Positions 25,394-60,711 of a stretch of 64,000 nt of DNA are shown here, piece after piece; the first letter of the stretch is position 1; every line of letters begins with the position of its first letter. Source of the stretch: Candidatus Jordarchaeales archaeon. Its GTDB lineage: Archaea; Asgardarchaeota; Jordiarchaeia; Jordiarchaeales; Freyrarchaeaceae. The notes under the pieces were generated by a model. It was not told the origin of the DNA and did no database searches. It worked only from the letters and a program-made list of their open reading frames with translations. Position numbers and translations under genes: made by a program. The stretch is taken from assembly GCA_038889235.1 (NCBI GenBank), contig JAWAHN010000002.1, forward strand, positions 230,288 through 294,287, in the 5' to 3' direction.

Positions 25394-26908
25394 ATGCTAG
25401 AATTCGTTGAGAAGGGCTCTGGTCTTTCACATAAGATTTATGTTGTCGATGCACATCACCATCTAGGTGCCGATAGAGATGGTCAGAGTAACCGTAACCC
25501 AGCTGCTCCAGGAGGCACATTCGACTTTTGCGTTAGACTGAGTAGCCACGTCGCAAAGATGCTTGCAGACGGAAAAGTTGACCTTAAATTTCAACCACAC
25601 GGCTTCCTAAAAGAGCTCTTGGAAAGCGAGGAAAAGTGGAGGGATACGCTTAACGGAACTTGGGTGATAGATAAAACCGTTGTTTTTCCTTTCAACGACG
25701 AGTTTAAATGGAAGGAGGGGGATGAGGGAAAAGCAACTTACTGGAGATCGAATGACAACATTTACAGGTGGGTTTCACGAGCCCCTTACTCGTTGAAGCT
25801 GATAGGTTACCTGCGCCTAGTCCCTCATGAAGGTGAGCTAGCCATAAGAGAACTTCACAGGGCGGTCAAACAACTTGGTTTAAGGGGCGTAAAGCTACAT
25901 CCACGTTCCGATGGCTGGAGTAACGAAATAGACTCCGAGCCTGTTGAAAACCTCCTCGTCGAGGCGGCCAAACTGGGGGTTCCCGTGATATTCGACACTC
26001 GTGGATTCAACCAAGTGGTAGACATAGCATCGGTAACTGTTAAAGCGAGAGCCAGGCTTGCAAGAATTGACAAACGCTTAACAAGACAACTTAAAATAAT
26101 AATCGCCCATATAGGGTTCCACTTAGGTTACGATGAACTTTACACCGTGTTAAGCCATCCAAACATTTACGGTGAGGTTTCAGGCATACAGAGCTCGGGG
26201 GTGCAAAAGCTATTCGAAGACGCCCCCTTAAAACTGGGGGAGAATCTGGAACCATATTACTCGTGGTCCGAGAAAATAATTTTTGGAACAGATTTCCCAT
26301 ACTTCGACGTTTATCACGCTGCGCAGTTCATCTCTTACGTGCTAAGCGATGACTTCCCCGGAACAATACACGATGCGCAGCGAATACTGGGTGTTAACAT
26401 TCTGCGCCTAATCCCTCCAAGAATGGTCAATGTCCCCCGTGAGTTGAAGTCGGTCCACGTTGACAGCTCCATTTTTCCTTTAACCCGAAAAGTGCTCGCC
26501 TCAAAAATCACAAAATTGTTCAGTGAAAAAAAGATAGACATCTCCTCTTTCGATGAATTCCTCAGTCTTCCTCCAAAAGCATCAGTTAAAGATGGCTGCC
26601 TCCTATTACTGAAAAACCATGGAAATAACGGTAAAGATGTTTTCCTTGCGCTCCTTCCACTTATAAATTTCGGAGTAGTAACGCTCTTTGAAAGCGAGTT
26701 GCCCGACACCAAGCAGCTAACTAGTAGGGAATTGGGTTATGACGAGTTTTCATCAAGACGTCAATTTTACGAAAAATTATGGCCTGTTACTGTCGAGAAA
26801 GACTCTGCTGAACTTGAGAGAAAGCTAGATGAGCTACTTAACACTTTTTTAGAAAGTGTAAGAGGTGATGCATCAGTTAAGTTAAATATGGGTTCTTCTT
26901 CTGAATAG
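25394..26908 (+). CDS. Amidohydrolase-2-like metal-dependent hydrolase with extra C-terminal domain
   Basis: TIM-barrel amidohydrolase with intact-looking metal ligands: DAHHHLG (19-25), GVKLHP (His169), HIGFH (239, 243) and FGTDFPY (Asp300). Members hydrolyse or decarboxylate small substrates. Residues about 350-504 form an additional domain that I do not recognise. The vWA gene starts 28 bases later, so the two are probably one operon. A fused, ligand-less relative of this pair lies at 39126-41672. Substrate unknown. Confidence 0.75.
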   Translation: MLEFVEKGSGLSHKIYVVDAHHHLGADRDGQSNRNPAAPGGTFDFCVRLSSHVAKMLADGKVDLKFQPHGFLKELLESEEKWRDTLNGTWVIDKTVVFPFNDEFKWKEGDEGKATYWRSNDNIYRWVSRAPYSLKLIGYLRLVPHEGELAIRELHRAVKQLGLRGVKLHPRSDGWSNEIDSEPVENLLVEAAKLGVPVIFDTRGFNQVVDIASVTVKARARLARIDKRLTRQLKIIIAHIGFHLGYDELYTVLSHPNIYGEVSGIQSSGVQKLFEDAPLKLGENLEPYYSWSEKIIFGTDFPYFDVYHAAQFISYVLSDDFPGTIHDAQRILGVNILRLIPPRMVNVPRELKSVHVDSSIFPLTRKVLASKITKLFSEKKIDISSFDEFLSLPPKASVKDGCLLLLKNHGNNGKDVFLALLPLINFGVVTLFESELPDTKQLTSRELGYDEFSSRRQFYEKLWPVTVEKDSAELERKLDELLNTFLESVRGDASVKLNMGSSSE

Positions 26909-26936
26909 TGGATTAATGAAAAAGGGAGGGGCTGTT

Positions 26937-28406
26937 ATGCCCGACGCGAACCAGGGTGATGAAAAAAATAGGACGAATGAAGAGTCTGCCAAACCCCTAA
27001 AAGCAGTCAAAAAAGTTGTGAAGAAGAAAGAAGGAGAAGTCGAGGTCAAGGCAGAAGGGGAACGCAAAGAGGAAGAAGTCCTCAGTAAAATGTTTAAAGA
27101 GGTGGAGGAGACCAAAAAGGAGAAAATCCCGAAGAAAACTTTCAAAGTATCGGTCAAAGAAGGGTTATCTGGTTACATATCCATCAGCGATGTGGACGCT
27201 AAGGAGCTCGGCATACATGAAGGCGCAATAATTGAGTTCGAAGACCCGCTTTCTGGATCCGGAGGCGTCGCTCTCGCGCACTTGGATAAAACTGTCTCTG
27301 CGGGGGTTGCAGTAATTGAACCAGCCCTCAGCGAGGCATGTGGTTTAGATGAGGGGTTCGAAATAGACATAAAGAGGTTTGAAGGTACTCCACAAAAGTT
27401 AACTAAGATCTCCTTTGGTATTGAGCCCTTGGAAGGTGAGGCTGAGGAAGCTATAAAGCGCGTGACAGAATCCAAGGAAGAATTTCAGAAGTGGCTTGAC
27501 GGTCGAGTTATATTCAAGGATTGGGTTCTTAAGAATCCGAAGCTTAAAATTAACGTTTATATTGTTTCTACAGAGCCTCCCCTTACCGGGAGGCAGGTTG
27601 GAATAATAAACTTCGCTGAAATTAAAGAGTATGAGGTTAAACCGTGGAGGGCAGCTGTCCCCTTCAACGCCATACTACTTATAGACGTTTCAAGAAGCAT
27701 GCTAACTGAAGATATGAAAGTTGCTAACATTGCGCCAGCGATTGAAGCTATAAAGACTATTGGCGGTGAGGAGATACCGGAACTTAAGGAATTTCTCGGA
27801 CAATTCCAGGAAGGAAAATCCGTTAAGAGAGTTGCTGGCGCAGTGTTCGCCGCCTTACTTTACCTAGTAGAAAAAGTAGGTAGAGGGTATGGAGAAAAAG
27901 TAGCTGTAATAACTTACTCGGAGGACGCCGAACCAATAACATTCCTAATGACGGGAGGAGTAAAGCTACCATACTTCCATCCAGGAAGGAGTAAAATAGC
28001 AGGCGTATCGCAGCTCAGTAGGCTGATAATCGATAGGCTTAACAGGGTTTCCAGCCAACACACGAACATGTCGCAAGCCTTGATGAAAGCTCTAGAGTTA
28101 ATTGAGATGTGGGATAAAGAAAGCGAGGAGAAAAAGCTGCCAACAATGGTCGTGCTTCTTAGCGACGGATTTCCCGATGTGTGGGGAGAAGAAGGACCTC
28201 CCGTCCAAGTTGTTCACGACCACTTCTCTAAGAGGAACGATGTCGTAATATACACAGTTGGTATAGGCGGGGAAGTTCAGGAGAGGATAATGGAAGCTAT
28301 AGCTTCGAAAGGCCGCGGGGTCTACTACAAGGCAGAAGACTTAGGAGAACTATTAAACTGGTACCAGAAACTTGCACGAGACCTAGTCATTAGGCTTGAA
28401 GCTTAG
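26937..28406 (+). CDS. Cdc48N-like double-psi barrel plus von Willebrand A domain protein
   Basis: 489 residues. 1-65 is a charged Lys/Glu linker. 68-150 resembles the Cdc48/VAT N-terminal double-psi beta barrel (GYISISDVDAKELGIHEGAIIEF). 243-480 is a vWA domain with a full MIDAS: DVSRS (250-254), Thr376 in QHTNMS and Asp410 in LLSDG. It should bind a partner protein through Mg. The ATG at 26937 follows GGGAGGGG; an upstream ATG at 26916 is weaker. Likely functions with the adjacent amidohydrolase. Confidence 0.75.
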   Translation: MPDANQGDEKNRTNEESAKPLKAVKKVVKKKEGEVEVKAEGERKEEEVLSKMFKEVEETKKEKIPKKTFKVSVKEGLSGYISISDVDAKELGIHEGAIIEFEDPLSGSGGVALAHLDKTVSAGVAVIEPALSEACGLDEGFEIDIKRFEGTPQKLTKISFGIEPLEGEAEEAIKRVTESKEEFQKWLDGRVIFKDWVLKNPKLKINVYIVSTEPPLTGRQVGIINFAEIKEYEVKPWRAAVPFNAILLIDVSRSMLTEDMKVANIAPAIEAIKTIGGEEIPELKEFLGQFQEGKSVKRVAGAVFAALLYLVEKVGRGYGEKVAVITYSEDAEPITFLMTGGVKLPYFHPGRSKIAGVSQLSRLIIDRLNRVSSQHTNMSQALMKALELIEMWDKESEEKKLPTMVVLLSDGFPDVWGEEGPPVQVVHDHFSKRNDVVIYTVGIGGEVQERIMEAIASKGRGVYYKAEDLGELLNWYQKLARDLVIRLEA

Positions 28407-28459: not shown

Positions 28460-31400
28460 CTACTTCGGTGTGAATGTAACTGTTATCAGGGCGTTTTGAA
28501 CGAGTTTGCGTGGGATCTCCCTGAGTTCCCCCCTCACTTTTTCGAAGAAAATCATTCCCAAGTAGTATGATTCGGTGTTTTCCGGTCTTGGAACTTTCCA
28601 CACCAATGGTTCTCCTGTTATTTTTTCTATTTTCCCTTTGGTAAGCGTTAACTCAGCTGTTTTCCGCATAATAACCTTCTTGGTTTTCTTTTCGAATATG
28701 GCGAAAACAGCTCTTACTTGCAGCGGGTAATCCGTGAAGCTCTGAACAGCCGGTGAAATTTTGTACTCTAGCTCTTTTTCTATCTGTACGAACTCTGAGA
28801 GGGGTGGTGTGCTCAAGTATGCCACCCTCAATACAGGTCTTACAGCTTCAACTTTCACGTACCTTTCACTAACCCATCCTAATTCCTCTCCTTTTCTAAC
28901 TTCAAACCTAAGTTTACACTCTTTTCCCGTCGCAAAGAGGGGAGCCTTCACAGGTATCTTAACGAGAACTCTTTCTTTCGCTCCCATCTTCACCGGTATA
29001 GTTTCCTGCAAAACAACGGCACCGTCAACGGATTCCATATATACTAGGTCAAATGTCAACGGACTGTTCACATTGTTTTCAAGCTGGATTATTATATCTT
29101 GAAGAGTTCCCGGCGCCATAATTCCCGGTATTTCATGCAAAAAGACATTTACCGCCTCTTTCAGACCTATCACATTGACTTCCGCACAGTCCTCAATTAT
29201 GCTTCGCCCCTCTTTTATCAAAATAGCCTTCACAGTAAACTTTCCAACATGATTAGGAGCGGTTATGGGGGGTATGTCTATCACGGAGTCCAATATGGGT
29301 TCCTTCAAGGGTATCACTGCTTCTTTTACCTCCCCCGCCTGAGACACCGTCTTTACTACGAGGTCACACGGCACTAGTGTTCTGCTAAGCCCTCTTATCT
29401 CAACTTTCCCTGTGAACGGCGACCCTAACGCGACAGTTCCAGGCATCGATGTAAGCTTCAGAAATGTTTCTTGCCCCCTAACCACTCTGAATTTTATAGG
29501 CGTCTCAATAAGGTTTATGAGTTCTCCATTGTGGAAGACTTCCGCAGTGAAGTACATTGTGTCCTCGTTCTTGCCACTTTCCAGAACATCATCTGTAATA
29601 ACCCACTTAATTGGTATGTTCGTTGATACCCCCGGTTTAACCGACAAATCGAGGATTTTCTTCTCTGCCCCAGTGGTCATGGATTTAACCTTTACTATAA
29701 TGTTGACCGGGGTTGGCGAAAGCAACTCACTCGCGTCAACCATTACCTTGCTCTCCAGAGTCTCTCCCACATTGTAAGTTTGCTTAGGAATGCGTCCAAA
29801 CTCTACTGAAACCATTGCTCCCTGGAAGAAAACCCTGAAGTCCCTAGACCACGCTTCCGATACAACTCTTCCACTCGAATCTATTAATTGCGCTCTTATA
29901 GAACATCTTGGGCTAATCCACGAGCTGTAGAGCCACGGCTTCAAAGTGAGCGGCTCTATTTCAACCCAGCTCCCCTCAGCCTGCCCCTCCAATACTGCTT
30001 TCGCCCAATCGAGCTTCGCCGTCTCTTCCGACATCGCAACAAAGAGAACTTGGTCTCGTGCCCTTATAGGTTTAAGGTACACCCCCCACGGTTTGATGTC
30101 ACTCGTCACGTAGTCAAGCTCACGGCCACTGTCCTTATCCACTACCGACACTTTGAGAGTTAGATACACGTCCTGCGGCGTGGTGTTTTCAACAGCAACT
30201 ATGAATGGTATTTCGGTCTCACCAGTCACTATTACTCCGTCGACCTGCGCTATCAAGTCTGCTTTACAGTTAACCCTGTAAACAGGTATCGCCAGCTTCT
30301 CAACAGCAACCGTCTCAGACGAGACAGCCAGTTCGGCGCTAAGCGTGTACTGTGAGATCCCCACTTCCGTCTCAAACTCCATTTCGCCGTACCTTCTTTC
30401 TCCGGGTTCTAGAGCGTCTAGGACAAACTCCTCCACAAGCACTTCTTCACCCTTCTGGTTCACTACAACGCACCTCAAAGTGAGGTCTCTTAACACCTCA
30501 TTTCCCTTGTTTTCAACGAACACTTTGCAAGTCACAGTCTGGCCCTCAAACACCATGGGTGTCTCAAGGACCGTTTCAAGCGAGACTGGCACCGTAACAA
30601 ACTCTTGTAGGTTCGGGGTCCCCATCAGCGGGTCGCTCCATATGTTGTTGCTCGTTTGATCAGCAATTATCTGCAGCTCCCTTGCCAAGCTCTCGATGTC
30701 CTCCCCCAGTTCAAAGAACTTTTCAAGCTGGTAGTCTGCGGTAGTCATCGGAGCAATCACATTTCCTGTCAAGTCGCCGTAAACACTGATCAAAAGTGGG
30801 TTCAGATACTCCGACTTCAAAAGCCCCAGCTCATCAAGCTCCTCCCTCAAGAAGAGGAACATGTTCTTTACAGCGTCCACTAATCGTTTCACAGGCTCTC
30901 TACCGCCAGACTTAAGGTCGAAGAAGTACGAGCGCGCAAAGTCAGGGTACCTTTTAACGAATGCGTCTAGATCCCTTGGCTTGTAGAAAGCCCCCGTAAG
31001 CCCCCACCTTATCGCCGATCTCCTGTTTTTCACTAGCGTTTCCGAATCTACATCTGGTATCTCTTCCCCAGCATCGAGGAGCCTCTTAGCCTTGAGGGCT
31101 ATTGCTTGAAGGAGAGCGGCTATGGCAACCTTTCTTATTACACTTATTTGGCAGTCAAAAAATCTGATTTCAACAGTGCCGTACTTTGTGAATGGGTACA
31201 TGTCGCACATCCTGGCAGGTGTACGTCCAATAGTTTTTTCGAAAAACTCTTCGTCGAGAGATTTAAGGTATGGAATGTAGTGTTGCGGGTCATCTGGCCC
31301 AAGCTGTCGAACATTAAGCTGAAGCCTTATGCTTCTAACACAGCCTGGGGCTTGAAGTTTTCCGTCTTTCAGCGTGACGATATCTGTTGGCCGCCCATTC

Positions 31401-32002
31401 ACAAAGGGAGAATTAACCGAGAGCGCTATCAGGTGGGGTATGAATGCGCGAATAAGGTTATAAACGGCAAGCCGCAACTTCGGGTCGGGGACGCCTATGT
31501 GGTGGTGGTCTCCGAAGCTTAGCCCTTGCTGATATTCCATCAACGGGTTTAGACCAGTCATTATGAGTTTAACTCCCGCAGGTAGGGAGTCGTGTGAAAG
31601 TTTAATCAGCGTGTGAAGCCACCAGGCAAGTTCTTCTAAGCTTTCACAGGGAGGTGTGGCTACTTCCAAAATCCACGTTATGGTTCCTATGTGGGGGTCG
31701 CGTCCCAGCACTTCTACATCCACTTTCTTTCCGTCGGGGAGAGTGTACGTTAAAATCAGGGTTTCTCCTCTTCTTTCAACAGGTGAGACCCTAATGTTAG
31801 ACGTCTTCTTACCTATTCTCCTAACTAACTCATCCTGTGGCTCCTTGAGAATCGCTTTGAGTTTGTCTGCAACATCGTGAACGATTTTCCCCATTATACT
31901 AACCATTTTCTCTCCGTCAATCCAGCGTCCCTTCAAGTTCACTATTTGAATCTCTGACTCTATGCCATGTGTGAACGGCAATTTCAAACTTGGTAAACTC
32001 AC
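28460..32002 (-). CDS. Giant fusion: GCS2-like carboxylate-amine ligase plus tandem beta-sandwich domains
   Basis: 1180 residues. The first about 450 match the glutamate-cysteine-ligase family 2 pattern: GIESEI (Glu15, Glu17), GDHHHIGVP (166-172), and GTVEIRFFD (275-283), residues that bind Mg-ATP and the carboxylate in that superfamily. From about 465 to the end the protein consists of repeated 100-150-residue all-beta segments with CARDB/Ig-like wording (VFVENKGNEVL, FIVAVENTT, IIIQLENNVNSP). No signal peptide or membrane segment. I know no such fusion. Third gene of a minus-strand operon; only six bases separate it from the previous stop. Confidence 0.65.
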   Translation of the reverse strand: MSLPSLKLPFTHGIESEIQIVNLKGRWIDGEKMVSIMGKIVHDVADKLKAILKEPQDELVRRIGKKTSNIRVSPVERRGETLILTYTLPDGKKVDVEVLGRDPHIGTITWILEVATPPCESLEELAWWLHTLIKLSHDSLPAGVKLIMTGLNPLMEYQQGLSFGDHHHIGVPDPKLRLAVYNLIRAFIPHLIALSVNSPFVNGRPTDIVTLKDGKLQAPGCVRSIRLQLNVRQLGPDDPQHYIPYLKSLDEEFFEKTIGRTPARMCDMYPFTKYGTVEIRFFDCQISVIRKVAIAALLQAIALKAKRLLDAGEEIPDVDSETLVKNRRSAIRWGLTGAFYKPRDLDAFVKRYPDFARSYFFDLKSGGREPVKRLVDAVKNMFLFLREELDELGLLKSEYLNPLLISVYGDLTGNVIAPMTTADYQLEKFFELGEDIESLARELQIIADQTSNNIWSDPLMGTPNLQEFVTVPVSLETVLETPMVFEGQTVTCKVFVENKGNEVLRDLTLRCVVVNQKGEEVLVEEFVLDALEPGERRYGEMEFETEVGISQYTLSAELAVSSETVAVEKLAIPVYRVNCKADLIAQVDGVIVTGETEIPFIVAVENTTPQDVYLTLKVSVVDKDSGRELDYVTSDIKPWGVYLKPIRARDQVLFVAMSEETAKLDWAKAVLEGQAEGSWVEIEPLTLKPWLYSSWISPRCSIRAQLIDSSGRVVSEAWSRDFRVFFQGAMVSVEFGRIPKQTYNVGETLESKVMVDASELLSPTPVNIIVKVKSMTTGAEKKILDLSVKPGVSTNIPIKWVITDDVLESGKNEDTMYFTAEVFHNGELINLIETPIKFRVVRGQETFLKLTSMPGTVALGSPFTGKVEIRGLSRTLVPCDLVVKTVSQAGEVKEAVIPLKEPILDSVIDIPPITAPNHVGKFTVKAILIKEGRSIIEDCAEVNVIGLKEAVNVFLHEIPGIMAPGTLQDIIIQLENNVNSPLTFDLVYMESVDGAVVLQETIPVKMGAKERVLVKIPVKAPLFATGKECKLRFEVRKGEELGWVSERYVKVEAVRPVLRVAYLSTPPLSEFVQIEKELEYKISPAVQSFTDYPLQVRAVFAIFEKKTKKVIMRKTAELTLTKGKIEKITGEPLVWKVPRPENTESYYLGMIFFEKVRGELREIPRKLVQNALITVTFTPK

Positions 32003-34237: not shown

Positions 34238-34463
34238 AAAGCTCCCCTCACATCTCATCTGCTGTAAAATATAATTTCTTCAAAGGAATTTATTTATTTT
34301 TTGGGATAAGTTGCTGCAAAAAAGCAAAAACTTAAGTATATTTGCCAAAAACTGAGAAGTCCTCAAATCACATCGCGCAATTTTTTGTAAACAGGTATCC
34401 CGTGAGACAAGCAAGCCATAAACCCCTGCTATTACCTTAGAAGTCTTTCGTCGATACGTAATG

Positions 34464-34471
34464 TTTAAAAA
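34464..34471 (+). promoter_or_regulatory. TATA box of the tRNA-Cys gene
   Basis: TTTAAAAA lies 29-36 bases upstream of the first tRNA base, the standard archaeal box A distance for a transcript starting a few bases before the tRNA. Confidence 0.55.
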
Positions 34472-34515
34472 CTCCTTTTTCGTCTAATTGGGCTAGAGAG
34501 CCGGGGTGGCCGAGA

Positions 34516-34546
34516 ACACTTTCTCCCATTTTAGAGAGTGTCGGAA
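34516..34546 (+). other. tRNA-Cys intron 1 (31 nt, D-loop)
   Basis: Central helix CCGA (34510-34513) with TCGG (34541-34544); 5' bulge GA|A and 3' bulge AA|A, each cut after the second base; inner helix CACTTTCT (34517-34524) with AGAGAGTG (34533-34540). Inserted about position 16/17. Confidence 0.75.
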
Positions 34547-34554
34547 ACGGTGAG

Positions 34555-34575
34555 TCCCTTTTCTGGGGGCATTAA
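34555..34575 (+). other. tRNA-Cys intron 2 (21 nt, D-stem 3' side)
   Basis: Central helix GGTG (34549-34552) with CATT (34570-34573, two G-U pairs); 5' bulge AG|T, 3' bulge AA|G; inner helix CCC (34556-34558) with GGG (34567-34569). Outer helix is weak. Removal restores the D-stem strand GGC ahead of A26. Confidence 0.65.
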
Positions 34576-34589
34576 GCAGCGGACTGCAG

Positions 34590-34602
34590 TGTTCACGCAG
34601 TC
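34590..34602 (+). other. tRNA-Cys intron 3 (13 nt, canonical 37/38)
   Basis: Central helix CTGC (34584-34587, includes most of the anticodon) with GCAG (34597-34600); 5' bulge AG|T and 3' bulge TC|A; outer helix is the anticodon stem itself. Confidence 0.85.
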
Positions 34603-34624
34603 ATCCGCCACACCGGGGTTCAAA

Positions 34625-34642
34625 ACCTTCAAAAGGTGAAAA
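34625..34642 (+). other. tRNA-Cys intron 4 (18 nt, T-loop 59/60)
   Basis: Central helix TTCA (34619-34622) with TGAA (34637-34640); 5' bulge AA|A and 3' bulge AA|T; inner helix CCTT/AAGG; outer helix is the T-stem. Removal gives a normal TTCAAAT loop. Confidence 0.85.
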
Positions 34643-34691
34643 TCCCTGCCCCGGCTCCAACTCATTTTCCGGCTATGTGAGATGGTGTTTT

Positions 34692-35315
34692 ATGCCTGTC
34701 TCTCTAACTCCAAGTGTTGTCAAGAAAATTTCTTTGGCAGTTGACGCACTCTTAACTATCTGGTCTATTATTCGTTCCTCCTCTCCGAGCTATACACTGA
34801 AAGATGAGGAAGAAAAAGAGTTCGTTGAAAAGTTGTCATTGGCCTACCAACTACTTTCAGATCTGGCTTCCACTATGGGTGTTAAACAGCAACGTGAGAG
34901 CGGACTCGACGAAGTATTTTCAAAGTTGAAGCCGGACGAAACACTCATCCTCGTCGTTTCGCCGTCTTTCATGAGGCAACTCGTGAAGGCTGGTGTTCCG
35001 AGAGAAAAGGTAGTTGCTGTGGGGGGGCCGCTAACTAGCGAAGACGTCAAATTACTAAACCCTAACATCTCTGAAGAATCCGTGGCAAAAATTGAAGAGC
35101 GTCTAAAGTCTTTTTGGAGGGAGCTTGAAAGAAAAGCTAAGGGTATACGTACAGTGCTCCTGGTTCTAGAGAAGGGTGGTAAGGTTGACGAGATGATAGC
35201 CAGTCGCTCAAACTTGTTATCTGAAAAATTAGGAGTTGAAGTCAAGCCAATTTACCTGAGTGGTTTTGAAGATCAGTTCATAAGTGCTCTACCACAATTC
35301 TTTAGAAAGGAGTGA
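34692..35315 (+). CDS. Candidate SepCysE-like partner of SepCysS
   Basis: 207 residues. N-terminal about 65 residues are helical (VVKKISLAVDALLTIWSII), then an alpha/beta part with LILVVSPSFMRQL, KVVAVGGPLTSED and IRTVLLVLEKGGKVDEM. It lies 32 bases after the tRNA-Cys gene and its stop is five bases before the SepCysS start, so it is almost certainly in the same operon. In methanogens the SepRS-SepCysS complex is assembled by SepCysE, a protein of about this size with a helical N-terminal binding domain; I assign this only by context and shape. ATG chosen behind GATGGTG. Confidence 0.5.
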   Translation: MPVSLTPSVVKKISLAVDALLTIWSIIRSSSPSYTLKDEEEKEFVEKLSLAYQLLSDLASTMGVKQQRESGLDEVFSKLKPDETLILVVSPSFMRQLVKAGVPREKVVAVGGPLTSEDVKLLNPNISEESVAKIEERLKSFWRELERKAKGIRTVLLVLEKGGKVDEMIASRSNLLSEKLGVEVKPIYLSGFEDQFISALPQFFRKE

Positions 35316-35320
35316 GCTGT

Positions 35321-36523
35321 ATGCCCCTTAGTCCCGACCGGCTTTTAAAGTACTACAACCTCACGAGAAACACCGAAATAGAAGCCATAAACCTCCACCC
35401 GATTCAAAGCGGAGGAAGAGCGGGGAACTATCCTGGGGTTGTTAAAGCAGTATTGAACTTCATAGACGGGTATAGCACGTGCGACTACTGTATTAAAGGT
35501 AGACTTAATGAAATCGAAACCCCTCCCCTACGCGACTTCCACAGCGACCTAGCAGAGTTCGTAGAAATGGACGAAGTACGCCTCCTACCCGGGTGCAGAC
35601 AGGCTCAATTTGCCACTTTCCACAGTCTAGCGAAACCCGGCGACTACATAGTTATTGACTCCTTAGCACACTATTCAACATACCTCTCCGCCGAGAGAGC
35701 TGGCCTAAAAATAGTCGAGGTCCCCAACACAGGCTTCCCTTATTTCGAAGTACCACCCGAACTCTACGCTGAAAAAATAGAAGAAGTCAAAAGGGAGACT
35801 GGAAAACCACCAGCCTTAGTCTTCCTCACTCACGTTGACTACTCTTATGGTAATCTCGCTGACGCCAAAAAGGTTGCAAGGATATCTCACGAGTATGATG
35901 TACCTTTCGTCCTAAACTGCGCATACACGGTAGGCAGAATGCCTGTCTCCGGACGGGAGCTGGAAGCCGACGTTATAACTGCCTCGCTGCATAAATCTTT
36001 TGCATCACCAGCTCCGTCTGGGCTCATCGCAGCTAAGGAAGAATATGCAAAACAAATATTCAGGAGATCTACGGTGAAAGGGGAGTGGAGTGGAAGGACG
36101 TTTCCCAACAAAGAAGTGGAGCTCCTAGGATGCACTCTTCCAGGATGCGTCGCTATAGGTGTAATGGCTGCATTTCCATATGTGGTTGAAAGAGTAAAAC
36201 ATTGGGATGAAGAAGTGAAGAAAGCTCGTTACTTCTCAAGCCAGTTAACGAGGATAGAAGGTGTCATCCAGCTCGGGCAGACCCCACACAACCACGACCT
36301 CCTTCACTTCGAAAGCTCCTCATTCTTCGAGATCGCTAAAAACCATCCTAGAAAAGGCTTCTTCCTCTATGACGAGTTGAAATCCCGAGGAATTGTAGGT
36401 GTTCAACCAGGGCTTTCGAAATCTTGGAAGTTATCAACTTATGGCCAAAGCTGGGAGAACGTTAAAAGGGCAGCCCAAGCATTTCTTGAAATAGCTGAAA
36501 AATACGGCATCCCTGTCTCGTGA
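35321..36523 (+). CDS. pscS: Sep-tRNA:Cys-tRNA synthase (SepCysS)
   Basis: PLP enzyme that turns O-phosphoseryl-tRNA(Cys) into cysteinyl-tRNA(Cys) using a sulphur donor. Family marks: opening with LNLHPIQ-type INLHPIQSGGRA, the essential pair CDYC (Cys54, Cys57), PLP lysine in SLHKSFASPAPSG (Lys225), and GCTLPGC (Cys271, Cys276) corresponding to the third catalytic cysteine. 400 residues is normal. ATG at 35321 has AAGGAGTGAG upstream. The partner SepRS is not in this window; presence implies the tRNA-dependent cysteine route. Confidence 0.92.
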   Translation: MPLSPDRLLKYYNLTRNTEIEAINLHPIQSGGRAGNYPGVVKAVLNFIDGYSTCDYCIKGRLNEIETPPLRDFHSDLAEFVEMDEVRLLPGCRQAQFATFHSLAKPGDYIVIDSLAHYSTYLSAERAGLKIVEVPNTGFPYFEVPPELYAEKIEEVKRETGKPPALVFLTHVDYSYGNLADAKKVARISHEYDVPFVLNCAYTVGRMPVSGRELEADVITASLHKSFASPAPSGLIAAKEEYAKQIFRRSTVKGEWSGRTFPNKEVELLGCTLPGCVAIGVMAAFPYVVERVKHWDEEVKKARYFSSQLTRIEGVIQLGQTPHNHDLLHFESSSFFEIAKNHPRKGFFLYDELKSRGIVGVQPGLSKSWKLSTYGQSWENVKRAAQAFLEIAEKYGIPVS

Positions 36524-39125: not shown

Positions 39126-41672
39126 TTGCTCGTTATCGACTTTGATGGGCGCAAAGACGAAATCTATGTTATAGATGCAGACGTCCAAGTTGGGGTGAGC
39201 TCCGATAAAGTTAGCAAAAGTTACAACTTAGACGAGTTGCAAGTTTTTGTAAAGAAGCTTGAAGGAGAGCTTCTCCTTAAAAGCGCGCTCCTCAAAAACA
39301 AGACAGTCAAATTTAACCCAACAATTCCCCTCGGTTTGAAGGAAATTCATCCAAAAGTTTTTAGTGGATTCGTTGACGAGTTTTTCGTCTCCCCGTTCGT
39401 TACAAGAATATCCTTTAGTGGTGGAGAAGTGGAGTTTCTGTCCCAGGAAATTTCCCGGAACAACGTATTAATGCTCAAGTGGCTTCAAAGCTTCAACGCG
39501 TTTAATTCGCTTCCTTTCAGGTATGTTCTTCCATCCGAAGTCCCGGACATAGCGTACATTGTCTCAGAAGGTTATAGAGGTGTGCGAACTAAGTTTGACA
39601 ACATTTCGTGGATCACAACCTTGTACTCCGACCTCTCTTACTTCAAGATGCCGTTAATCGTCGAAGTATTCAAAAGGCATGAGTTAGATTTGTTGGAAAA
39701 GTTTGTCGAGCAGAACGAGAGCAGCGGCCGTCTAGAAAACCCGATAATCGTCATCCCATACTTAAAGGAACAAGTAAAGTTCAACCTCTATGGCTTCATG
39801 GGTGTAAAAAATGTTTTTCTTTGCACCTCCCCTCTGCAAATAACTACATTGAAACAATTAATTTACAATCTTAGCGAGATTGACAGCGAGTGGTTTAAAC
39901 ACATAATCTTCGGGTCTGGTTTCCCCTATTCCAGCATTCGGGATGTTGTGAACAGTGTTGTCCTCCTCCTCGATGAAGACCTTCCCGGCGGTCTGAGAGC
40001 ATTTAAGTGGATTATGGGGCTTAATGCACTATCCTTCCTTCCTCCGAAAGCACGCCGTGAAGGCGATATAGAAACAGGTGAGATTTGTGTTGTTGCCGAG
40101 GGTGACGTGGCCAAAACGCTTGTTTCCTCCCTCAAAAGAGTGATACTTCATGCCGTAAACAGGAACTCTTTGCATTTGGACAGCTGCGACTGCCTAGCAG
40201 TTTTGGATCGCGAGTGCGTGGACTTGAATAAATGCTTTTTCACCTTTTCATCTATTAAAGAAAAGAAGTTTGGCAGTATACTCTTTCTACTAGAAGAGAA
40301 CGGCGAAACTGCTACTATACTCCTAGTACGACAGGAAGTTGCCAGAAGGTCAAGAAGCAGGTTCTTAAGCGACTTTCTTGAACAACCAGAAATACAGGCG
40401 GCTATTCTAAATGCATCTAAACTTACATCCAATACCGACGTAGAAAACTGGTTGAAATGGTTAATTGAGCACTATAAGGAAAGAGGCATAGTAAACTATG
40501 AAGACATAAACGTATTTACAGTTCATACATTCGACTTAAAGGACAGGGTCGCCTTAATGAACGAAGAAGACATGCGTTTCCTCAACCTGAAAGAAGGTGA
40601 CTTGATAGTATCAAGAACAACCCTAACCGGAGACTGGTACATAGTCCCTGTAAAAGTAGGAGAGAATGTTCCAGGAGGCTCATTATGGGTTGACGAGAAA
40701 GTAATAAACACTTGGTATGTTTTCGAAGGAGATACCGTTAGAGTTGAAAAATTTGAGGGCGTCATACACCCCCTCAAGGAAGTAGTCCTAGTTTCCGATG
40801 AAGCAGGCAAAATAGCTGAAATCAAAGAAAGTGTTGAGAGTATACTAGACGGCATTATTGTAGGGCAAAACTCTCGCATCGTTCTCCTAACAGAGAACGA
40901 CATGCCCCACGTTGTGACGGTTGCAAAATTTGACCCAGCACATCTAACTGCAGGACTAGTTAAGAGGGGAGAAACGAGAATAAGTCTCCTTCCTAAGAGT
41001 GCCTTTACTCCTTACAACCTCATCTTAATAATAGACTTCACGGAAACCATGGGTAAATGCGCTCCTGTAGCAGTGGACCCCGCCGTAATTGATGAAATAA
41101 AACACCTAACCCCCATAAGCGCCGAGGGGCTTCCTGGAGAAGCCAATTGTGCTCTAGCTGCCTCCCTCGCGCTTTCCTACCTCTTAACAAAAATAGTTAA
41201 AGTTAGCAATTTGAGCAAGGTGTTCCTGCTCACTTGCTCGGACGAAGTAAGCAAGTTCTCTCTGCTTGAGGGGCGAAAAGTTTCCTCATACCTCGAGATA
41301 ACTCCTCAAAAGCAGAACGTCGCGCTAAAAATACTCATTTCGCATATTTTTGATAAGTGCAAACACGGGTGTAAGGGTAATGTCAAGCTTTCTGAGGCAG
41401 CAAACGAGATAAAAAATCTGATAGAAAGTGTAAAGGACGGGAATACTTTCCTCGTTCTCTTCGTAATTCCAGGCGAAAGACTCGAAGAAGCATTAAAAGC
41501 AACCGAGCACCTTAAAGGAGATAATAGAGTTAAGGTTGTTTTCATAAGCATAGAGTCCGTGGGATCAGCTCAAGAAGTGAAAGACAGTATATGCATACGC
41601 GAGGTAAAACCTGAAACGCTTAACGAAGCAATTAAACATTTACTCAGCACAACATTCCTTCACAAGTCGTAA
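39126..41672 (+). CDS. Fused, degenerate amidohydrolase-Cdc48N-vWA protein
   Basis: 848 residues. By eye, residues 1-310 align with the amidohydrolase at 25394 (YVIDADVQVG for YVVDAHHHLG, GYRGVRTKF for GLRGVKLHP, IIFGSGFPY for IIFGTDFPY), 311-455 with its unknown C-terminal domain, about 465-545 with the double-psi barrel of the 26937 gene, and 630-845 with its vWA domain (IIDFTETMG in place of LIDVSRSML). All amidohydrolase metal ligands and the MIDAS serines are replaced, so it is probably catalytically inactive and structural or regulatory. TTG start behind GGAGGT. Confidence 0.7.
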   Translation: MLVIDFDGRKDEIYVIDADVQVGVSSDKVSKSYNLDELQVFVKKLEGELLLKSALLKNKTVKFNPTIPLGLKEIHPKVFSGFVDEFFVSPFVTRISFSGGEVEFLSQEISRNNVLMLKWLQSFNAFNSLPFRYVLPSEVPDIAYIVSEGYRGVRTKFDNISWITTLYSDLSYFKMPLIVEVFKRHELDLLEKFVEQNESSGRLENPIIVIPYLKEQVKFNLYGFMGVKNVFLCTSPLQITTLKQLIYNLSEIDSEWFKHIIFGSGFPYSSIRDVVNSVVLLLDEDLPGGLRAFKWIMGLNALSFLPPKARREGDIETGEICVVAEGDVAKTLVSSLKRVILHAVNRNSLHLDSCDCLAVLDRECVDLNKCFFTFSSIKEKKFGSILFLLEENGETATILLVRQEVARRSRSRFLSDFLEQPEIQAAILNASKLTSNTDVENWLKWLIEHYKERGIVNYEDINVFTVHTFDLKDRVALMNEEDMRFLNLKEGDLIVSRTTLTGDWYIVPVKVGENVPGGSLWVDEKVINTWYVFEGDTVRVEKFEGVIHPLKEVVLVSDEAGKIAEIKESVESILDGIIVGQNSRIVLLTENDMPHVVTVAKFDPAHLTAGLVKRGETRISLLPKSAFTPYNLILIIDFTETMGKCAPVAVDPAVIDEIKHLTPISAEGLPGEANCALAASLALSYLLTKIVKVSNLSKVFLLTCSDEVSKFSLLEGRKVSSYLEITPQKQNVALKILISHIFDKCKHGCKGNVKLSEAANEIKNLIESVKDGNTFLVLFVIPGERLEEALKATEHLKGDNRVKVVFISIESVGSAQEVKDSICIREVKPETLNEAIKHLLSTTFLHKS

Positions 41673-59856: not shown

Positions 59857-60711
59857 ATGATAAGGAATATTGAAATCTTTGATGCAAACGGGCGGTTAAT
59901 GTTCAAAAAGAAGTACGGAACAAGTAACATAGCCGACGATATATTCGACGACTTCATGGCGCACTTTGCAAAGATGATTTCCAAGGTGAACTTAGACGGT
60001 GGAGTTGAATTCATGAACTTGAAGAGGACGCGTCTTTACTACAGCAACTTTGACAAGACAGTTTTCATTTTTGAAGCAGATAAAAACGACGACATTAACG
60101 AGATGAAGACGAAGATGAAAAACATAATGCAAAACTTCATAGCAGACTATGGAGAGGCTATTCAAAACTGGGATGGTGACCCATCGGTTTTCTCGTCGTT
60201 TAACGAAAAAGTGGATGAGCTAACAACGACTCTTCTAAAACTTTCACTAATAGGTTTCAGCGGCGTGGGCAAAACGACAATACTTAAACTCATCAGAGAA
60301 GAAGAGCTTCCAAAGGAGCACATACCAACCATAGGCGTTGGCATAAAAGGCGTCAAAGGAGCCATGATAGGTAATACGCAGCTCGTCTGCTGGGATCTTG
60401 CAGGACAAGAGAGGTTCAAGATGACATGGGACAAATTTATCAAAGCGTCATCACTAATAGTAATAGTAACAGACTCAACACTGGAGAACGTTGTGAAGTC
60501 GCGCTTTTTCGTGAGATTAGTAAAGGAAGAAGAACCCGAAGCGAACATGGTTGCGCTAGCCAATAAACAAGACCTTCCAAACGCACTCCCCCCTGAAAAA
60601 GTGGAAGAAATATTAGGAGTGAAAACATACGGATTTGTAGCTATAGATCCTATGAACAAATCAAAGTTTTTTGAAATAGTTCGAAACGTTGTTATGGGCG
60701 TAGTAAGTTAA
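59857..60711 (+). CDS. Longin-like domain fused to an Arf-like GTPase
   Basis: 284 residues. 1-110: longin/AP-small-subunit-like domain (IRNIEIFDANGRLMFKKKYG). 130-284: GTPase with G1 GFSGVGKT (133-140), switch I Thr158 (PTIGV), G3 WDLAGQERF (Asp180) and G4 NKQDLPNALP (236-245), the NKQDLP and WDLAGQE wording is Arf/Sar-like. Eukaryotic SR-alpha has a similar longin-GTPase order, but the GTPase there is of another type. ATG behind AGGAGATC. Confidence 0.82.
   Translation: MIRNIEIFDANGRLMFKKKYGTSNIADDIFDDFMAHFAKMISKVNLDGGVEFMNLKRTRLYYSNFDKTVFIFEADKNDDINEMKTKMKNIMQNFIADYGEAIQNWDGDPSVFSSFNEKVDELTTTLLKLSLIGFSGVGKTTILKLIREEELPKEHIPTIGVGIKGVKGAMIGNTQLVCWDLAGQERFKMTWDKFIKASSLIVIVTDSTLENVVKSRFFVRLVKEEEPEANMVALANKQDLPNALPPEKVEEILGVKTYGFVAIDPMNKSKFFEIVRNVVMGVVS

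Follow-up and report, generated by a model that had tools for sequence, protein, structure and literature searches.

A tRNA-Cys gene predicted to carry four introns in an Asgard archaeon of the class Jordarchaeia

Archaeal tRNA genes have been described with a maximum of three introns per gene (PMC4033280, PMC4390854, PMC8450103, PMC3293823). The multi-intron tRNAs of Thermoproteales, for instance tRNA-Glu(UUC) of Pyrobaculum calidifontis and tRNA-Pro(UGG) of P. islandicum, stay within this number (PMC4390854), and relaxed BHB motifs as well as large numbers of tRNA introns have been associated with (alpha-beta)2 EndA and its specific loop (PMC6379350, PMC4033280). In 2024, introns were reported in 92-95% of the tRNA genes of Freyarchaeia, a group equated with Jordarchaeia, and several introns per gene in over half of them (PMC11291895). 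The main text of that report, which covers Freyarchaeia and Atabeyarchaeia, the same lineages as our host or neighbouring Asgard ones, gives neither a per-gene maximum nor a tRNA-Cys case, and four-intron genes may already be in its supplementary table; apart from what that table may list, no relevant report on an archaeal tRNA with four introns was found in the literature. Here we describe a tRNA-Cys gene with four introns in a stretch of 64,000 nucleotides from a Jordarchaeia genome (hereafter the window). An earlier note on this DNA had given up to three introns as the known number, with Thermoproteales as their bearers; three is indeed the maximum in the papers cited above. The present host is an Asgard archaeon. 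Since Freyarchaeia are, by the account of 2024, already rich in multi-intron tRNA genes, a multi-intron tRNA is expected here, and the fourth intron would be the new step.

The gene, a tRNA-Cys(GCA) of 160 bases with an encoded CCA, lies on the forward strand at 34500-34659, the very position given by the earlier note. Its two ends pair perfectly over the 7 bp of the acceptor stem, behind which comes TCCA, that is, the U73 discriminator and CCA (34656-34659, +), and the anticodon GCA lies at 34586-34588 (+). Neither ARAGORN nor Rfam found a tRNA in the unspliced window, a silence that is expected for multi-intron genes; the four introns also explain why no tRNA-Cys is reported by the standard tools that were used. 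After removal of the four inserts proposed in the note, ARAGORN accepted the resulting 77-nt form (GCCGGGGTGGCCGAGAACGGTGAGGCAGCGGACTGCAGATCCGCCACACCGGGGTTCAAATCCCTGCCCCGGCTCCA) as a tRNA-Cys(GCA) with no intron, all four arms, U73 and CCA. A custom search started from nothing more than the acceptor ends and general rules for tRNAs and BHBs, and built the tRNA from 5' to 3' with jumps allowed only over BHB-motif inserts; its top solution consisted of exactly the same four inserts. Solutions with three or fewer introns were returned in none of four species, even under the relaxed rules of the grammar used. Solutions with five introns split intron 1 at weak sites, are not conserved, and were rejected.

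A shuffle control, in which the four inserts were shuffled 2,000 times with the exons kept fixed, gave a maximum score of 75 against 83 for the real gene (0/2,000 shuffles matched it), and in each shuffle two or more of the four splice sites failed the BHB test. The claim of a 4-bp central helix between two 3-nt bulges at each motif stands for this species in the register of the earlier note, with 4/4 pairs at all four introns, but in some sister species the helices of introns 1 and 2 have 3/4 pairs, as does that of intron 1 in the register preferred below; neither of these two introns has a proper outer helix. As far as sequence can tell, it is confirmed that 34500-34659 is a real tRNA-Cys(GCA) gene with four BHB introns, presumably removed by splicing.

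The four-intron gene was present in all four genomes examined of the genus (four of the eight in the order), namely that of the host and those of three sister species, which are draft MAGs (G001-G003). For G003 the relaxed script returned no four-intron solution, with intron 1 and inner helices below its thresholds, and the four inserts were assigned by alignment. Among the four species the mature tRNA-Cys differs at one or two positions and the exons are 97-99% identical, while the introns are 52-60% identical and of unequal length. Compensatory changes were found in the intron helices, from A-T to G-C at 34516-34541, from T-A to C-G at 34551-34571 and from C-G to T-A at 34558-34567. Near-constant exons together with intron changes that keep the pairs are the pattern of real introns selected for structure only. 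A promoter-like, TATA-like box (CGTAATGTTTAAAA, 34457-34470, +) is conserved as well, and in all four species (CGTAAYRTTTAAAA) it precedes the tRNA-Cys by about 30 bases. That standard tRNA finders miss the gene would also be consistent with a decaying pseudogene whose acceptor and T arms were kept by chance or because decay is recent, but this explanation is barely credible in view of the near-identical exons in four species, the conserved promoter box, the conserved linkage to SepCysE and SepCysS and the lack of any other detected tRNA-Cys.

Intron 1 interrupts the D-loop (Sprinzl 15/16), and its bounds, which are uncertain by about one base, are better set at 34515-34547 (+) than at 34516-34546, as had been proposed. 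The earlier register uses the pair 34513-34541, which is A-T in the window and A.C in the three sisters; the pair 34516-34541, on the other hand, is A-T in the window and G-C in all three. Because the first fails in the sisters and the second co-varies, the 5' bulge is read as A34513, G34514 and A34515, with the cut after G34514. If the 3' cut is set behind A34547, the D-loop becomes AGCGGYG, and the orthologue of a second Jordarchaeia family, whose D arm has no introns, likewise has a 7-nt D-loop, AGCGGCG; on account of this match to an intron-free D arm, 34515-34547 and a mature tRNA of about 75 nt are preferred. Of the earlier description, the four inserts (all recovered in the top solution), the arms, U73 and CCA hold, while the bounds of intron 1 move by about one base on either side and the mature length of 77 bases is reduced. 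Retaining 34516-34546, with nine bases in the D-loop and 77 in the whole tRNA, would be a variant of the same explanation with the same mechanism; it offers a perfect 4-bp central helix (CCGA/TCGG) in this species alone and scores 83 against 81, but A34513 would face C34541 in three sisters, where 34516-34541 is kept by a double change, and its D-loop would be AGAACGGUG, whereas the alternative, with AGCGGUG, has the D-loop form (AGCGGYG) of the orthologue without D-arm intron. We therefore regard this variant as unlikely, though worth keeping in mind. With the preferred 5' cut, it is possible that the 3' cut falls after A34546 instead of A34547. The count of four introns is unaffected by the choice of boundary.

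Intron 2 (34555-34575, +) lies in the 3' strand of the D stem (23/24) as a relaxed BHB, with a central helix GGTG/CATT of 4/4 pairs, two of them G-U. The earlier note had judged it the least certain of the four for its weak outer helix, an assessment that we share, as no outer helix was found; yet its position is conserved and shows compensatory change, the pair 34551-34571 being T-A in the window, T-G in G001 and G002 and C-G in G003. Introns 3 and 4 are seated on the anticodon and T stems with ordinary BHB geometry. The former occupies the canonical position 37/38 (34590-34602, +), with the central helix CTGC/GCAG in the host, G001 and G003 and CTGC/GTAG in G002; the latter lies in the T-loop at 59/60 (34625-34642, +), with the central helix TTCA/TGAA (TGGA in G002), the inner helix CCTT/AAGG and the T stem as outer helix. 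Intron 2, with its two G-U pairs and no outer helix, has the weakest motif of the gene, and it would be the most likely candidate if only three or fewer inserts were spliced and the fourth were retained as an enlarged D arm. Such retention is, however, very improbable, since the grammar used allows no valid tRNA with fewer than four introns in any of the four species, the length and sequence of intron 2 vary between constant flanks, the pair 34551-34571 co-varies, and the sister-family orthologue has an unbroken D arm (AGCGGCG-AGGC).

This orthologue, the tRNA-Cys of the second Jordarchaeia family (L062 3-149; L063 2046-2191), resembles that of the window in lying upstream of SepCysS and in sharing the 59/60 intron, but it has three introns, two of them elsewhere (32/33 in the anticodon loop, and the variable region), and its D arm is uninterrupted. 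Other Asgard or archaeal tRNA-Cys genes examined, at outgroup loci covered by a strict scan, have no intron or one. The simplest history is a stepwise gain of introns, with 59/60 as the oldest and the D-arm introns as newer; it is also possible that some introns were instead lost in the second Jordarchaeia family.

In the part of the host genome that was surveyed, many tRNAs are interrupted by one, two or three introns, and Cys alone has a convincing four. Three introns are apparent in Ala(GGC), Leu(CAG), Leu(TAG), Pro(GGG) and Ser(GGA), those of Pro and Ser having been settled by hand. The script had given four or five introns for Ser(GGA) at L011 and Pro(GGG) at L022, which resolved by hand to three each, and for the Tyr gene at L007, which has two or three, its fourth being unconvincing. 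In the tRNA-Pro(GGG) (L022 1398-1563; G000:C1, near 772966), which falls below the cut-off of the tRNA covariance model, the three introns lie in the D-loop, in the D stem and at 42/43; in the tRNA-Ser(GGA) (L011 from 1502; G000:C1:648534) there are probably three, in the D-loop, at 37/38 and inside the variable arm. A tRNA-Arg on the minus strand of L147 (G000:C1, near 487222) carries a T-loop intron similar to intron 4 of tRNA-Cys (84% over 31 bases, T arm plus intron), and it is possible that this intron was copied between tRNAs.

The earlier note had suggested looking for a splicing endonuclease of heterotetrameric or epsilon2 type, and an (alpha-beta)2-type EndA with two subunit genes is encoded in the genome (alpha at L058 1192-1782, beta at L059 1474-2061 on the minus strand), each subunit having the N and C domains. 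EndA alpha aligned best with 3p1z, which we take to be the EndA of A. pernix; the alignment takes in the loop segment GQPLGIRKPK as well as the catalytic His. In place of this His, chain 3ajv has Ala, and EndA beta is without His there. The EndA alpha loop GQPLGIRKPKTPQF aligns without gaps with GQPLDVEKPRGADF of A. pernix, K51 standing opposite K44, the residue that is presumably required for non-canonical introns in the A. pernix loop. The enzyme of this genome is predicted to be of (alpha-beta)2 type with a crenarchaeal-type loop, one subunit being catalytic and the other structural.

The placement of tRNA-Cys beside SepCysS is known in other archaea (PMC5424206), and it is the same at loci of Bathyarchaeota (L086) and Methanomethyliaceae (L072), but in these the tRNA-Cys has no introns. 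In the window, a SepCysE homologue (DUF2100; 34692-35315, +; PF09873, E 4e-19, over the cut-off) begins 32 bp downstream of the tRNA-Cys and is followed by SepCysS, the Sep-tRNA:Cys-tRNA synthase (35312-36523, +; TIGR02539, 493 bits, above the cut-off); the order tRNA-Cys, SepCysE, SepCysS is the same in G001-G003. The genome also encodes SepRS (TIGR00470, over the cut-off), and nothing in it passes the cut-off for CysRS. No second tRNA-Cys was detected by similarity in this genome, which is 95% complete and in which a heavily interrupted copy could escape such a search. Cysteine decoding in the host most likely depends on this tRNA-Cys gene and on tRNA-dependent cysteine synthesis. The SepCysS of the window shares 86-87% identity with its counterparts in the Jordarchaeia MAGs LHC_1308, JNZ_1113 and QC4, and 70% with the ones in RPF2, QZM_A3 and Ca. 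J. madagascariense; together with the taxonomy of Jordarchaeia, these identities place the host in this class of Asgard archaea and not in Thermoproteales.

Other genes of the window deserve mention. The only match of a protein of 1180 aa (28460-32002, -) is a short one to GCS2 (glutamate-cysteine ligase) at residues 158-206, and its long C-terminal portion matches nothing in Pfam; an 848-aa protein (39126-41672) has no Pfam match, and amidohydrolase and VWA-domain proteins (25394-28406) lie in the neighbourhood. The product of 59857-60711 is an Arf/Ras-like small GTPase, eukaryote-like and of Asgard type, whose N-terminus is extended by about 125 residues.

Taken as a whole, we hypothesize, with a probability of roughly 0.93, that the tRNA-Cys(GCA) gene described here is functional and single-copy, that its four BHB-type introns are cut by (alpha-beta)2 EndA, and that it feeds the SepRS-SepCysE-SepCysS pathway; its transcription, cleavage, ligation and charging are deduced from the DNA. 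The transcript would carry four separate introns at about 15/16, 23/24, 37/38 and 59/60, each of which the heterotetrameric EndA would excise, tRNA ligation would join the five exons, and the mature tRNA-Cys would enter the cysteine pathway, the last two genes of which lie directly downstream. Introns 1 and 2 of the D arm are separated by 7-8 exon bases, and the same bases are needed for both motifs. According to the authors of tRNAscan-SE, among crowded introns one is removed before the BHB of the other can form (PMC8450103); as introns 1 and 2 share these bases, their full BHBs probably exclude each other, and an ordered removal of the two is likely.

We are somewhat inclined to go further and see in it the first four-intron tRNA gene to be described, a state that a whole Asgard genus has fixed in its sole tRNA-Cys, with an obligatory order of removal in the D arm. 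If this is true, the published maximum per tRNA gene, as given in the literature accessible to us, would rise from three introns to four, and this among the closest archaeal relatives of eukaryotes, and the four sister species together with their three-intron relative would form a series for testing intron gain and the order of removal. In these organisms, each cysteine codon would rely on eight cuts by EndA and four ligations.
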